Shown here: positions 33,612-46,224 of the stretch, piece after piece
How the letters are laid out: each line of letters begins with the position of its first letter
Position numbering within the stretch: position 1 is the first letter of the stretch
Assembly (NCBI GenBank): GCA_947629685.1
Contig: CANREP010000004.1
Location: forward strand, 31,896 to 95,895
Source of the DNA: an uncultured Phascolarctobacterium sp.
GTDB lineage: Bacteria > Bacillota > Negativicutes > Acidaminococcales > Acidaminococcaceae
DNA: 64,000 nt
Reading direction: 5' to 3'
Made by a program: the position numbers and the translations under genes
Notes under the pieces: generated by a model
Database searches by the model: none
Told to the model about the DNA's origin: nothing
Seen by the model: only the letters and a program-made list of their open reading frames with translations

Positions 33612-34889
33612 ATGACTAAAGCAGATTATTCCTATAAATACGGACACGGTTATAAGGATTTTTCTCTGGAGCAGGAAAAAGTCATGGCAGAAATCAAGGT
33701 AGCGGAAATGACGCCGCTGACCGATCTGCGTCAGGCTGTGCTGGATGCAGTCTATCATCCGATTGGCAGCAAGCCGCTTAATGAACTGCTGCAGCCGGGA
33801 CAGAAAGTAGCTTTTATCTGCAACGATCCTACCCGCGTGGCGAACAGCCATGACTTTATGCCTATTTTAGTAGAAGAGTTAAACAAATTAGGCATCAAAG
33901 ACGAAGATATGCGCATCGTCTTTGCGCTTGGTACCCATCGCAAGATGACGCAGCAAGAAATGGTCGAAGCCGTAGGCGAAGATGTGGCGCAAAGACTGCC
34001 TATGTATAACAGCGACTGCAACAAGCTGGAAGATTTCGAGTATTTCGGCGAGACTTCCTTTGGAACGCCTGTCTGGCTGAACAAGCTTATTTGTGACGTC
34101 GACCTCGTCATTATGACCGGCACCATCGTGCACCACTTTTTCAGCGGTTTTGGCGGCGGACGTAAAGCCGTCCTGCCTGGGGTTGCGGCCATGGAAACCA
34201 TCAGGCGCAATCACAGCCTGATGATGAGCCCGGATTCACAGCTGGGCAAACTGCACGGTAATCCCGTCTATGAAGACCAGATGGAAGGCGTGCGACTTTT
34301 TGCCAAAGAGCATAAGCTGTTCCTGTTCAACGCCGTACTGGATGCGAAAAAGCAGTTTTTGAAGATTTTTGCCGGCGACTGGGAAGAAGCGCATCTCGAG
34401 GCCTGCAAATTTGTCGACAAAGTATACGGCGTGGAAATTGAAGCCCCTGCCGATATCGTTATCGCCAGCTGCGGCGGCTATCCTAAAGATATCAACGTCT
34501 ATCAGCTGCAAAAGACTATGGATAACGCCTGGTGCGCAGTAAAAGAAGGCGGCGTAGTCATCATTATCGGCGAATGTGAGGAAGGCAGCGGCAGCGCAGC
34601 ATTGGAAAAAGCATTGCAGGAGCATCCGTCGCCGGATGCTATCAAGGCGCAGCTGGAAAAGAATTTCGTTATCGGCGCTCATAAGGCTTTTGCTATTACA
34701 CGTTTAATGAAGAAAGCAAAATTTATCCTTGTTTCGGCGTTAGATAAAAAGATTGCTAAAGATTTGTTGTTTGATGCTGCGGACAGTGTCGATGAAGCTA
34801 TCGCGTTGGCAGAAAAGTATGTGGGCAGCGATTATAAAATCATCCTCATGCCGCAGGGCAGCCTGACAGTACCGCTGCTTAAAAAATAA
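33612..34889 (+). CDS. larA: nickel-pincer lactate racemase family protein (LarA)
   Basis: A 425-residue protein with the complete LarA active-site set. His109 (GTHR), His174/175 and Lys185 (HHFFSGFGGGRK) and His201 (RRNHSLM) lie one residue from the positions known in Lactobacillus plantarum LarA (His108, His174, Lys184, His200). Lys binds the nickel-pincer nucleotide cofactor and the His residues bind Ni or act as acid/base. It may racemise lactate or another 2-hydroxy acid, because the family is broader than lactate. The cofactor genes larB, larC and larE are not in this window. The ATG follows a GGGGGTG stretch. Confidence 0.88.
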   Translation: MTKADYSYKYGHGYKDFSLEQEKVMAEIKVAEMTPLTDLRQAVLDAVYHPIGSKPLNELLQPGQKVAFICNDPTRVANSHDFMPILVEELNKLGIKDEDMRIVFALGTHRKMTQQEMVEAVGEDVAQRLPMYNSDCNKLEDFEYFGETSFGTPVWLNKLICDVDLVIMTGTIVHHFFSGFGGGRKAVLPGVAAMETIRRNHSLMMSPDSQLGKLHGNPVYEDQMEGVRLFAKEHKLFLFNAVLDAKKQFLKIFAGDWEEAHLEACKFVDKVYGVEIEAPADIVIASCGGYPKDINVYQLQKTMDNAWCAVKEGGVVIIIGECEEGSGSAALEKALQEHPSPDAIKAQLEKNFVIGAHKAFAITRLMKKAKFILVSALDKKIAKDLLFDAADSVDEAIALAEKYVGSDYKIILMPQGSLTVPLLKK

Positions 34890-36107: not shown

Positions 36108-36374
36108 ATGCGCCCGCAAATAAAACTTACTCTTATAGAGCAGAAAGGCTGCCGCAGCTGTCATCGCGGCCATAAGGTTGGCGATACTTTTGATTTTGAT
36201 ACGCAGCGCGGCGAGCTTTGCCCGATGGCGCTGCATACAGGCTTTCCTTACATAGACATCCTGCGTTATGGCGGCAGTATTCCCGGGGAGCCGGAAGGGA
36301 CGGCGCGTTTTTGCTGTCCTGATCCTGATACGATTAACGTCTTTAAAGTAGAGATAGTTGGCAGCCGCAGTTGA
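36108..36374 (+). CDS. TIGR04076 family protein
   Basis: An 88-residue cysteine-containing protein matching the TIGR04076 pattern: GCRSCHRGHKVGD, then ELCPMALHTGFPYI, GGSIPGEPEG and CCPDP. The family is of unknown function; the conserved Cys and His hint at metal or cluster binding. It follows the HD gene by 11 bp with AAGGAGG before the ATG. The -35 of the next promoter overlaps its stop codon. Confidence 0.8.
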   Translation: MRPQIKLTLIEQKGCRSCHRGHKVGDTFDFDTQRGELCPMALHTGFPYIDILRYGGSIPGEPEGTARFCCPDPDTINVFKVEIVGSRS

Positions 36375-36398
36375 CGGACTGCCGGAAGTATGTATAAT
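36371..36398 (+). promoter_or_regulatory. promoter of the preQ1-riboswitch operon
   Basis: TTGACG and a perfect TATAAT are spaced by 16 bp. Predicted transcription start is near 36405, 10-15 nt before the aptamer. Confidence 0.75.
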
Positions 36399-36418
36399 AT
36401 ATTTATTGACAAGTGCAG

Positions 36419-36490
36419 AAGACAGTTCGTAACCATCCTGTCTTAAAACAAAACTACGGATGTCAAGGGCGCCGTAGTGCGCCCTTTTTT
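36419..36490 (+). ncRNA. preQ1-I riboswitch with transcription terminator
   Basis: The H-type pseudoknot of the class I preQ1 aptamer can be drawn in full. P1 is AAGACAG (36419-36425) with CTGTCTT (36438-36444). The 12-nt loop TTCGTAACCATC has the same length and TTC opening as the Bacillus subtilis queC aptamer. P2 pairs CGTA (36428-36431) with TACG (36455-36458) across an A-rich strand AAAACAAAAC. C36437 occupies the ligand-pairing cytosine position. Downstream, GGGCGC/GCGCCC (36467-36484) plus TTTTTT is a terminator whose loop bases CCGTAGT (36472-36478) are complementary to ACTACGG (36453-36459), giving the antiterminator. PreQ1 binding should therefore switch the operon off. Confidence 0.88.
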
Positions 36491-36507
36491 CTTTTGGAGG
36501 TAAGGAT

Positions 36508-37227
36508 ATGGGAACGGTGCCTTTTGAATGCAGATACGCCTGCATTGATGAAAAAAATTCCCGGGAAATAGTGTTGCTGCGCGGCAATGGCTGTAAATGG
36601 CGTCGCTGCCGTTTCTGCGACTACCATCTTGATTTTTCTTTGGATGAAGCGGAAAATTTTCGCCTTAACAGCAGGGTACTGCAGCAGGTGACAGGTAAAT
36701 ATGGCAGGCTGGAGGTCATTAACTCCGGCAGTTTCTGTGATTTGGATGCGGCGACGGTCCAGCTGCTGCTTGATATCTGTTCTCGACTGGGTATCAGGAC
36801 AGTGTATTTTGAGAGCCACTGGCTGCATAGGCAGCTTATTACTGCGTGGCGGCAGCGGTTTGCTGCTGCGGGCATTACGGTAAAAATGAAGATCGGCGTA
36901 GAGACTTTCGACAGTCTGTTCAGGGAAAGTTATCTTGATAAAGGCATGGGTATGGCAGCGCCGCAGGAGATTGCAGCATATTTTGACCAGGTGTGCCTGC
37001 TGCAGGGGTTGCCGGGTCAGACGAAGGAAAGTATGCTGCGTGATATTGAGCTGGGCTTGCAATATTTTGAAAGAGTCTGCGTTAATATTATGGTGGCCAA
37101 TACTAAGCCCATTCTGCCTGATGCAGCGGTCATTGACGTCTTTGTCAAAGAAATATATCCCTTGTATAAGGATGACGAGCGGGTGGATATCCTGCTCAAT
37201 AATACAGATTTCGGAGTAGGTGTATGA
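36508..37227 (+). CDS. queL: radical SAM enzyme, probable queuine lyase (QueL-like)
   Basis: A 239-residue radical SAM protein with iron-sulfur cysteines in GCKWRRCRFCDYH near residue 29, spaced Cx4Cx2C, and a possible SAM-contact segment KMKIGVETFD. It lies directly behind a preQ1-I riboswitch and overlaps the start of a YhhQ-type queuosine-precursor transporter by 4 bp. Clostridioides difficile QueL is a small radical SAM lyase that frees preQ1 from queuine for reinsertion by bacterial TGT. The context here fits that role, but I could not compare the sequences directly. ATG at 36508 is 7 bp after GGAGG. Confidence 0.75.
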   Translation: MGTVPFECRYACIDEKNSREIVLLRGNGCKWRRCRFCDYHLDFSLDEAENFRLNSRVLQQVTGKYGRLEVINSGSFCDLDAATVQLLLDICSRLGIRTVYFESHWLHRQLITAWRQRFAAAGITVKMKIGVETFDSLFRESYLDKGMGMAAPQEIAAYFDQVCLLQGLPGQTKESMLRDIELGLQYFERVCVNIMVANTKPILPDAAVIDVFVKEIYPLYKDDERVDILLNNTDFGVGV

Positions 37228-37937
37228 TGCAGAATGAATATTTGCTGCTGCTGAACTTGATTGCAGTTTATGGCGGCGTACTGGTCTGGCAGGTGCTGTT
37301 CAAGGATAAGGGGCTGTATTGCTGGACGGTGCTGGCGACTATTGCTGCCAATATCGAGGTTATGATCTTGATTAAAGCTTTTGGGATGCAGCAGACGCTG
37401 GGCAATATCCTGTTTGCTTCTACTTTTTTAGTAACGGATATCCTGAGTGAGTTATATGGCAGAAAACAGGCTGACAGGGCGGTTAATATGGGGATTGCCT
37501 CCTCGGTAAGCTTTATCCTGCTGTCGCAGTTTTGGCTGCATTACCAGCCGGACGGCGCCGATACGGTGTTTCCGCATATGGTGGCGGTATTCAGTAATAC
37601 GCCGCGCATTATGCTGACGGGACTTATTGTCTACGGCGTAGTACAGAAGTTTGATGTGTGGCTTTACCACTGGTGGTGGGAATTTACCAGGAAGAAGTAC
37701 GGTGATGCAGAGAGTTTTCTCTGGCTGCGTAATAATGGTTCCACGCTTATTTCCCAGTTTCTGAACACGGTGCTGTTTACGTTAGGCGCTTTTTACGGCG
37801 TGTATGAACAGTCTGTGTTGATAGATATTATTTTGTTCAGCTATGTTATCTTTATTGTTACAAGTATTGCTGATACGCCGGTAGTTTATCTGGCGCGTTA
37901 TCTGCATAAGAAATATAATACGGCAGAAGGAAAATAA
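37224..37937 (+). CDS. yhhQ: queuosine precursor transporter (YhhQ/DUF165, VUT family)
   Basis: A 237-residue membrane protein with about six helices. Family motifs ATFLVTDILSELYGRKQADRAV-like (here STFLVTDILSELYG), ILLSQFWLHY and WLRNNGSTLISQFLNTVLF match the YhhQ/VUT family, which imports preQ0, preQ1 or queuine. It overlaps the radical SAM gene by ATGA and shares its riboswitch. In a queuine-salvage reading it brings queuine in and the upstream enzyme converts it to preQ1. Confidence 0.9.
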   Translation: MMQNEYLLLLNLIAVYGGVLVWQVLFKDKGLYCWTVLATIAANIEVMILIKAFGMQQTLGNILFASTFLVTDILSELYGRKQADRAVNMGIASSVSFILLSQFWLHYQPDGADTVFPHMVAVFSNTPRIMLTGLIVYGVVQKFDVWLYHWWWEFTRKKYGDAESFLWLRNNGSTLISQFLNTVLFTLGAFYGVYEQSVLIDIILFSYVIFIVTSIADTPVVYLARYLHKKYNTAEGK

Positions 37938-37939
37938 AA

Positions 37940-37963
37940 AACCGCCTACAAAGGCGGTTTTTG
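37940..37963. terminator. bidirectional terminator, yhhQ / 508-aa gene
   Basis: AAACCGCCT-ACA-AAGGCGGTTT, with T-runs on both strands. Confidence 0.88.
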
Positions 37964-45734: not shown

Positions 45735-45741
45735 AATAAAA

Positions 45742-45828
45742 CAGGGAATGAAGTTCTCCCGGGATATTTAATCCGAACCGCTTTAAGCTGATGACTTCTG
45801 CTATGGGCAGGAGCATCGGCTTTTTTAT
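45742..45828 (+). ncRNA. fluoride riboswitch (crcB motif) with terminator
   Basis: The conserved blocks of the fluoride aptamer appear in order: GGGAATGAAGTTCTCCC, then CCGAACCGC, then GCTGATGACTTCTGC. The last block doubles as the 5' side of a terminator: GCTGATGACTTCTGC pairs with the downstream GGCAGGAGCATCGGC and is followed by TTTTTTATTTT. Fluoride binding should hold the aptamer and prevent the terminator, allowing crcB expression. Confidence 0.9.
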
Positions 45829-45849: not shown

Positions 45850-46224
45850 ATGGAGGGATTAGTTGGTATCGCTTTAGGCGGTGCGTTGGGAGCGGTATGT
45901 CGTTATGAAGCCGGGAATCTGGCCGTAAAGCACCTGGGGGACAGTCTGCCCTATGGAACCTTTATGATCAATCTGGCAGGCTGTTTCTGTATGGGATTCT
46001 TAATGACGCTGATTGTGGACAAAGGCTTGCTGCCGCCTGTCTGGCGTCTGTTTTTGTGCGTGGGATTTTTGGGCGGCTTTACTACCTTTTCTTCTTTCGG
46101 TTATGAAACACTGACCTTGCTTATGGAAGGCAATATCCTGATGGCTGCTTGTTATGCGGCGGCCAGCACGCTTCTTGGCCTTTTAGCAGCCGGTGTCGGT
46201 GTGCTCTTGGCTAATATTTTTTGA
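45850..46224 (+). CDS. crcB: fluoride ion channel/exporter CrcB (Fluc)
   Basis: A 124-residue four-helix protein of the Fluc family, which works as an antiparallel dimer exporting fluoride. Motifs are GGALGAVCRYEAG, YGTFMINLAGCF and FLGGFTTFSSFGYET. Only one crc gene is seen, consistent with a homodimer. ATG at 45850 follows GGAGGAGG. Its 3' end overlaps the convergent DMT gene by 42 bp. Confidence 0.95.
   Translation: MEGLVGIALGGALGAVCRYEAGNLAVKHLGDSLPYGTFMINLAGCFCMGFLMTLIVDKGLLPPVWRLFLCVGFLGGFTTFSSFGYETLTLLMEGNILMAACYAAASTLLGLLAAGVGVLLANIF

Follow-up and report, generated by a model that had tools for sequence, protein, structure and literature searches.

QueL-based salvage of queuine, a vitamin-like base of tRNA, is regarded as a stand-in for preQ1 synthesis that has been lost. 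An uncultured Phascolarctobacterium sp. carries a queL-yhhQ operon behind a short RNA leader. The operon lies in a 64,000-nucleotide stretch of contig CANREP010000004.1 (positions 31,896 to 95,895; hereafter the window), which is part of a 1.78 Mb genome designated G000. The reading favoured here, with a probability of roughly 0.86, is that of a salvage operon repressed by preQ1 in a host that also makes preQ1.

Between positions 36371 and 37937, the window contains a promoter, a short aptamer, an intrinsic terminator, a Shine-Dalgarno sequence, and the genes queL and yhhQ, which overlap by 4 bases (ATGA, combining the yhhQ start and the queL stop). A preliminary description of this DNA had listed the promoter, aptamer, terminator and two overlapping genes, and every one of them was found where it had been placed. 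The features are as follows.

36371 to 36398, plus strand: sigma-70-type promoter, TTGACG-16-TATAAT, agreeing with the consensus at 11 of 12 positions.
36420 to 36464, plus strand: predicted class I type I preQ1 aptamer, 65.7 bits with covariance model R2.
36420 to 36425 and 36438 to 36443, plus strand: aptamer helix P1, AGACAG with CTGTCT, based on P1 pairing in relatives.
36426 to 36437, plus strand: aptamer loop UUCGUAACCAUC, followed by an A-rich L3 and the tail at 36453 to 36459.
36436 to 36437, plus strand: UC ahead of the P1 3′ strand, which the type I rule (PMC11625349) makes U16 and C17, the specificity cytosine; invariant in 42 relatives.
36453 to 36459, plus strand: ACUACGG, aptamer tail and putative antiterminator 5′ strand, a perfect 7-bp complement of 36472 to 36478.
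36465 to 36491, plus strand: intrinsic terminator, AAGGGCGC-CGTAGT-GCGCCCTT plus a T run, with a hairpin at 36465 to 36486 of -14.3 kcal/mol (z -4.3).
36472 to 36478, plus strand: CCGUAGU, putative antiterminator 3′ strand, consisting of the last stem bases and the terminator loop, based on the shuffle test of tail pairing.
36496 to 36500, plus strand: Shine-Dalgarno sequence GGAGG of queL, read from the sequence.
36508 to 37227, plus strand: queL, radical SAM queuine lyase of 239 aa, based on sequence match to PDB 6P78, fold and tree.
37224 to 37937, plus strand: yhhQ/QPTR, queuosine-precursor transporter of 237 aa, based on TIGR00697, PF02592 and adjacency to queL.
37937 to 37962, no strand assigned: bidirectional-looking hairpin at the end of the operon, AAAAACCGCC-TTTG-GGCGGTTTTT, read from the sequence and scored on the minus strand.

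The promoter overlaps the stop codon of the preceding open reading frame (36108 to 36374), and the sister genome (G059) keeps the -10 element and most of the -35 element. The preceding frame, directly 5′ of the operon promoter, encodes an 88-aa protein of the TIGR04076 family and has the same placement in the sister genome. Elsewhere in the window, an ordinary fluoride riboswitch (45735 to 45807, 47.3 bits) stands 5′ of a 124-aa gene resembling crcB (45850 to 46224), and a lactate racemase (LarA) family protein is encoded at 33612 to 34889 with no tie to the operon.

The preliminary description had expected an Rfam search to recover a preQ1-I riboswitch. The Rfam scan of the window at the gathering score returned tRNAs and the fluoride riboswitch with no preQ1 match, a result that, taken literally, speaks against the assignment. 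When the leader was scanned by itself, RF00522 appeared below threshold at 36417 to 36463 (20.6 bits against a gathering cut-off of 39, E 0.039), and two clostridial relatives scored only 27.3 bits with this family. Covariance model R2, trained on 34 clostridial aptamers and on none from Phascolarctobacterium, gave the window site 65.7 bits (E 3.6e-15), with the runner-up in the window at 8.5 bits. A model that includes the window aptamer (R1) had matches in 77 of 201 Negativicutes genomes, nearly always one per genome, and all of the best 30 Negativicutes matches were located directly 5′ of queT(-queF), queC or queL-yhhQ, a gene company that leaves little doubt as to the ligand family. On the sequence evidence, the stronger covariance model and the gene context outweigh the missing match at the gathering score. 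Because this aptamer group falls below the Rfam threshold in the cases tested, the queL-yhhQ leaders of Lachnospiraceae are probably under-annotated. STnc40, SNORA25 and DapZ also matched the leader below the Rfam threshold, and these matches were dismissed as coincidental overlaps with a terminator.

A QueL alignment, used to scan genome contigs, yielded 80 loci, most of which carry AGACAGUUCGURACCAUCCUGUCU, an A-rich stretch and ACUA[G/C]GG 5′ of queL. With a strict pattern and a distance of at most 450 bases, the aptamer was found in 68 of 82 queL loci. Across 42 aptamers from relatives, 99.6% of P1 cells were paired and two of the pairs showed compensatory changes, which bears out the P1 helix of the preliminary description. 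Its P2 helix (CGTA/TACG) is possible in the window and the genus and is not conserved among the 42 relatives, where, of its central pairs, the G-C pair is impossible in 19 and the U-A pair in 20. The ceilings of type I aptamers are known to be partly non-canonical (PMC11625349). One predicted leader fold had UUGAC paired to GUCAA, bridging the aptamer; it was dropped because the GUCAA partner is missing in the sister genome.

Several queL loci depart from this layout. In genome G074 (locus L003, 2214 to 2330, minus strand), queL-yhhQ has no type I aptamer, and a different hairpin lies just 5′ of it (CGGAG...CTCCG, A-rich, then AGGAG). The Rfam preQ1 models had no match in the RNA 5′ of queL at this locus, and the hairpin might act as a switch of a different type that controls translation. 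At locus L077 (3874 to 3990), the aptamer loop is changed to AAAACCUCC, with an 8-base complement, GGAGGUUU, that resembles the ribosome-binding site of the gene; this is perhaps a translational variant. At locus L044 (3672 to 3880), P1 and the loop are intact and the expected ACTAGG tail lies well over 100 bases downstream, so that the aptamer seems to be broken or interrupted.

In terms of subtype, the defining marks of type I aptamers are a UU that follows the P1 5′ strand, a UC that precedes the P1 3′ strand, and a tail in which ACUA holds a conserved C (PMC11625349, PMC8752633). The window RNA (36420 to 36459) has the UU, the UC, an A-rich L3 and the ACUA tail, and these features are invariant or nearly so in the 42 relatives. 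Its 12-base loop can be numbered as in the solved Carnobacterium RNA (U6, U7, C8, A12, U16, C17), and the tail ACUACGG contains the A30, C31 and U32 of type I, as assigned by motif. By the published criteria, the window aptamer is of type I and is not a Bsu-like type II aptamer. The preliminary description had placed P1, P2 and the ligand cytosine as in the known aptamer; the fit is to type I rather than to the better-known type II of B. subtilis. Because of its type I features, the window RNA should bind two preQ1 molecules.

The type I aptamer appears in this setting to be a controller of queuosine genes, as it precedes them in all of the best 30 Negativicutes matches and also precedes the queD operon of the same genome. 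The position of the window aptamer in front of a queuine-using operon would also be expected if it sensed queuine or another queuosine intermediate instead of preQ1. This is very improbable given that the same aptamer stands 5′ of the host's own preQ1-making operon, and 5′ of queT-queF or queC in relatives, and that all of the named type I bases for preQ1 recognition are present in the pocket. In addition, the published pocket makes contact with the aminomethyl group, and in queuine this group carries a bulky cyclopentenediol. The predicted ligand is preQ1.

The preliminary description had proposed that ACTACGG in the aptamer and CCGTAGT in the terminator make ligand binding and antitermination mutually exclusive. 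When growing transcripts were folded, the antiterminator was the minimum-energy fold for transcripts ending at 36476 to 36484, and the terminator took over from 36486. The equilibrium favours the terminator only slightly (-24.1 kcal/mol versus -22.7 kcal/mol two bases earlier), and given this small margin the choice between the two folds is likely kinetic. Six Phascolarctobacterium-type leaders (genus and near kin) with differing terminator stems retain a complement of ACTACGG if G-U pairs are counted. In dinucleotide shuffles, the tail pairing had p values of 0.02-0.06 in each of the six, although these leaders are related and the p values are not independent. With the competing folds computed and the complement retained, the proposed exclusive pairing has held up.

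Most clostridial leaders lack the tail pairing. In some of the clostridial leaders, ACCAUCC of the ligand-binding loop is instead paired with GGAUGGU at the base of the terminator. This loop pairing reached p < 0.05 in 18 of 70 leaders versus 3.5 expected, many of the 70 being related to one another, and in many of them neither the tail pairing nor the loop pairing is clear. Both kinds of pairing would prevent the aptamer and the antiterminator from coexisting. The riboswitch points to at least two ways of coupling a type I aptamer to a terminator. The type I riboswitches characterised so far act on translation (PMC11625349). Judged from its anatomy, the window switch would act on transcription.

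The radical SAM gene had been assigned to QueL from its context, size and unusual cysteine spacing. Domain searches with the window protein gave a weak radical SAM match in Pfam and a sub-threshold RaSEA match in NCBIfam. With phmmer, the sole strong sequence match in the PDB was 6P78 (E 3.2e-50), the queuine lyase of C. spiroforme, whose structure was solved with SAM and queuine; the match is full-length at approximately 42% identity. The AlphaFold model of QueL (mean pLDDT 93) had 6P78 as its top fold match, with TM scores of 0.91/0.94, an rmsd of 1.6 Å over 231 columns and an E value of 1.6e-25, while the next-best fold matches had an E value of 3e-5 and a TM score of about 0.5. All of 41 homologues, and 6P78 too, have the three cysteines of C29-x4-C34-x2-C37 (CX4CX2C). 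In a search of 399 genomes, QueL members scored at least 148 bits and all other radical SAM proteins at most 28. 6P78 appeared as a very-long-branch outlier only in the first tree, which was built without intermediates; adding intermediates resolved its placement, and it nests inside the family of the window protein with the other radical SAM proteins far outside. The phylogeny that had been proposed as a check thus groups the protein with 6P78 and not with an unrelated family.

The modest identity to the solved enzyme, only about 42%, and the long branch of 6P78 in the tree without intermediates could be taken to indicate a QueL relative with a different substrate. We consider this highly improbable in view of the full-length match, the 1.6 Å fold, the invariant CX4CX2C motif and the Q-gene context. 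Moreover, two queL loci whose products are 54-55% identical to 6P78 have the same aptamer, followed by queL and a YhhQ relative in the same order. The identity of QueL is confirmed as far as sequence can confirm it, and the enzyme would be expected to convert queuine to preQ1.

The second gene product scored 168.3 bits with TIGR00697 (curated cut-off 50.95) and 150 bits with PF02592. In nearly all of the 80 queL loci, most of them in Bacillota, queL has a YhhQ relative next to it on the same strand, often within 20 bases. The earlier assignment of this protein to the YhhQ transporter family stands; an import specific to queuine is called into question by two genomes with yhhQ and no working queL. 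In one of them, G181 of the same family, queL is frameshifted near its start and has lost approximately 66 codons internally (contig 1; locus L100, 5780 to 6293). The aptamer, terminator and yhhQ are intact beside it. Unless this is an assembly error, YhhQ is useful there in the absence of QueL, pointing to a transporter with preQ1 or preQ0 among its substrates. The other, the relative G054, has a YhhQ-family gene and lacks QueL.

E. coli YhhQ transports preQ0/preQ1 (PMC10622847, PMC5372724), and together with the switch and yhhQ retained in G181 and the YhhQ of G054, this raises the possibility that the window YhhQ mainly imports preQ0/preQ1, with QueL recycling only the little queuine that is co-imported or released by tRNA turnover. 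The coupling of queL to YhhQ in nearly all of the 80 loci instead suggests a common substrate, and we regard the preQ0/preQ1 alternative as possible and rather unlikely. YhhQ is thus predicted to import a queuosine precursor that is most likely queuine, and possibly preQ0 or preQ1 as well.

The largest departure from the preliminary description concerns the host. It had predicted tgt, queA and queG/queH to be present and queDEC to be absent. The genes tgt, queA and queH were present in G000, and the absence was contradicted by a full queD-queE-folE-queC-queF operon on contig 11 (locus L096, 7037 to 10016, minus strand), with each gene at or over its curated cut-off. The sister genome G059 carries the same operon. 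In both genomes queD is preceded by a further copy of the type I preQ1 aptamer, whose loop is three bases longer; the Rfam preQ1 model missed this copy altogether. In this leader, the loop GUUUGUACC matches GGUACAAAC in the terminator (-13.6 kcal/mol; p 0.003 for loop pairing), and the terminator seems to have changed in step with the loop insertion.

QueT was not found in G000, G059 or G181, and most of the other relatives checked have it. Proteins of the IU_nuc_hydro family, to which QueK belongs, were not found in G000, so the expected substrate is the base and not the nucleoside. On its gene content, the host is a preQ1 prototroph with an added branch for salvage of queuine to preQ1, and no pure salvager.

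This combination is rare. Among 30 queL genomes checked, the QueC model exceeded its cut-off only in G000; completeness is unknown for the genomes reached via loci, and two of the 30 (G426 and G605) look like one genome. G074 and G181 had no full QueC match, and G059 had one, so that QueL together with de novo synthesis occurs in two genomes of one genus versus approximately 30 queL genomes without such synthesis. The latter fit the view of salvage as a replacement for lost synthesis, and Phascolarctobacterium is the exception, which makes the genus well suited to the question of why gut queuine is still scavenged by a bacterium able to make preQ1. Only 5 of 201 Negativicutes genomes had a QueL match, one of them weak, and the nearest kin outside the genus are clostridial, which suggests a horizontal acquisition of queL. 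A plasmid search for QueL returned one match, a queL-yhhQ pair of Fusobacterium vincentii (NZ_CP084075.1; locus L149, 3501 to 4903) on a 2.1 Mb "plasmid" record that is most likely a chromosome, and a phage search for QueL returned none. In contigs labelled Paludibacteraceae/Bacteroidales (L065, L085), QueL was placed within the Bacillota family with distant YhhQ neighbours, indicating either transfer or a binning error.

The proposed mechanism builds on the sequence, which covers all of the parts, the gene identities, their conservation and the two competing folds, and from these we infer ligand binding with two preQ1 per aptamer, the direction of regulation, the substrate of the transporter and the activity of the enzyme. 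When preQ1 is scarce, the tail ACUACGG (36453 to 36459) would pair with CCGUAGU (36472 to 36478) as soon as the latter is transcribed, and the resulting antiterminator hairpin would trap the 5′ arm of the terminator, allowing RNA polymerase to continue into queL-yhhQ. When preQ1 is abundant, it would bind an H-type pseudoknot built on the same tail bases (A30, C31, U32); with the tail occupied, the terminator would form and transcription would stop. YhhQ would bring in a queuosine precursor, QueL would cleave queuine to preQ1, and Tgt, QueA and QueH would turn preQ1 into queuosine in tRNA. The host would also make preQ1 from GTP through queD-queE-folE-queC-queF under the second aptamer copy, and preQ1 would shut off both supply lines, salvage and synthesis. 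On balance, we lean towards a further reading in which the two type I aptamer copies of this one genome drive termination through two switch points, the tail and terminator loop in queL-yhhQ and the aptamer loop and its terminator match in queD, so that a prototroph represses synthesis and recycling with one ligand.

preQ1 riboswitches 5′ of queL, queK, yhhQ and other transporter genes have already been described as a group (PMC12519234), and the queK-qrtT-queL operon of C. difficile has a preQ1-I riboswitch (PMC11477304). The window operon is similar to the latter in having a preQ1-I switch before QueL and a queuosine-precursor transporter. It differs in that the transporter is YhhQ/QPTR and not QrtT, in that no IU_nuc_hydro protein was found, and in that the host also makes preQ1 de novo. 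The aptamer shares the UU, UC, CUA tail and conserved pocket bases with the type I switches of Carnobacterium antarcticum, H. influenzae and N. gonorrhoeae (PMC8752633). In contrast to the translational Carnobacterium switch, it is followed by an intrinsic terminator and by an antiterminator that uses the aptamer tail. In this respect it is like the type II switch of B. subtilis queCDEF, which also acts by transcription termination with an antiterminator that includes the 3′ part of the aptamer; however, the type II aptamer has AC before the P1 3′ strand and one ligand, and the UC found here places the window RNA in a different subgroup. The enzyme resembles the C. spiroforme queuine lyase in full-length sequence, fold and cysteine spacing, at the identity given above. 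As far as was checked, the new elements are the prototroph setting, the paired aptamer copies with two switch points, and an aptamer group that lies below the Rfam threshold.
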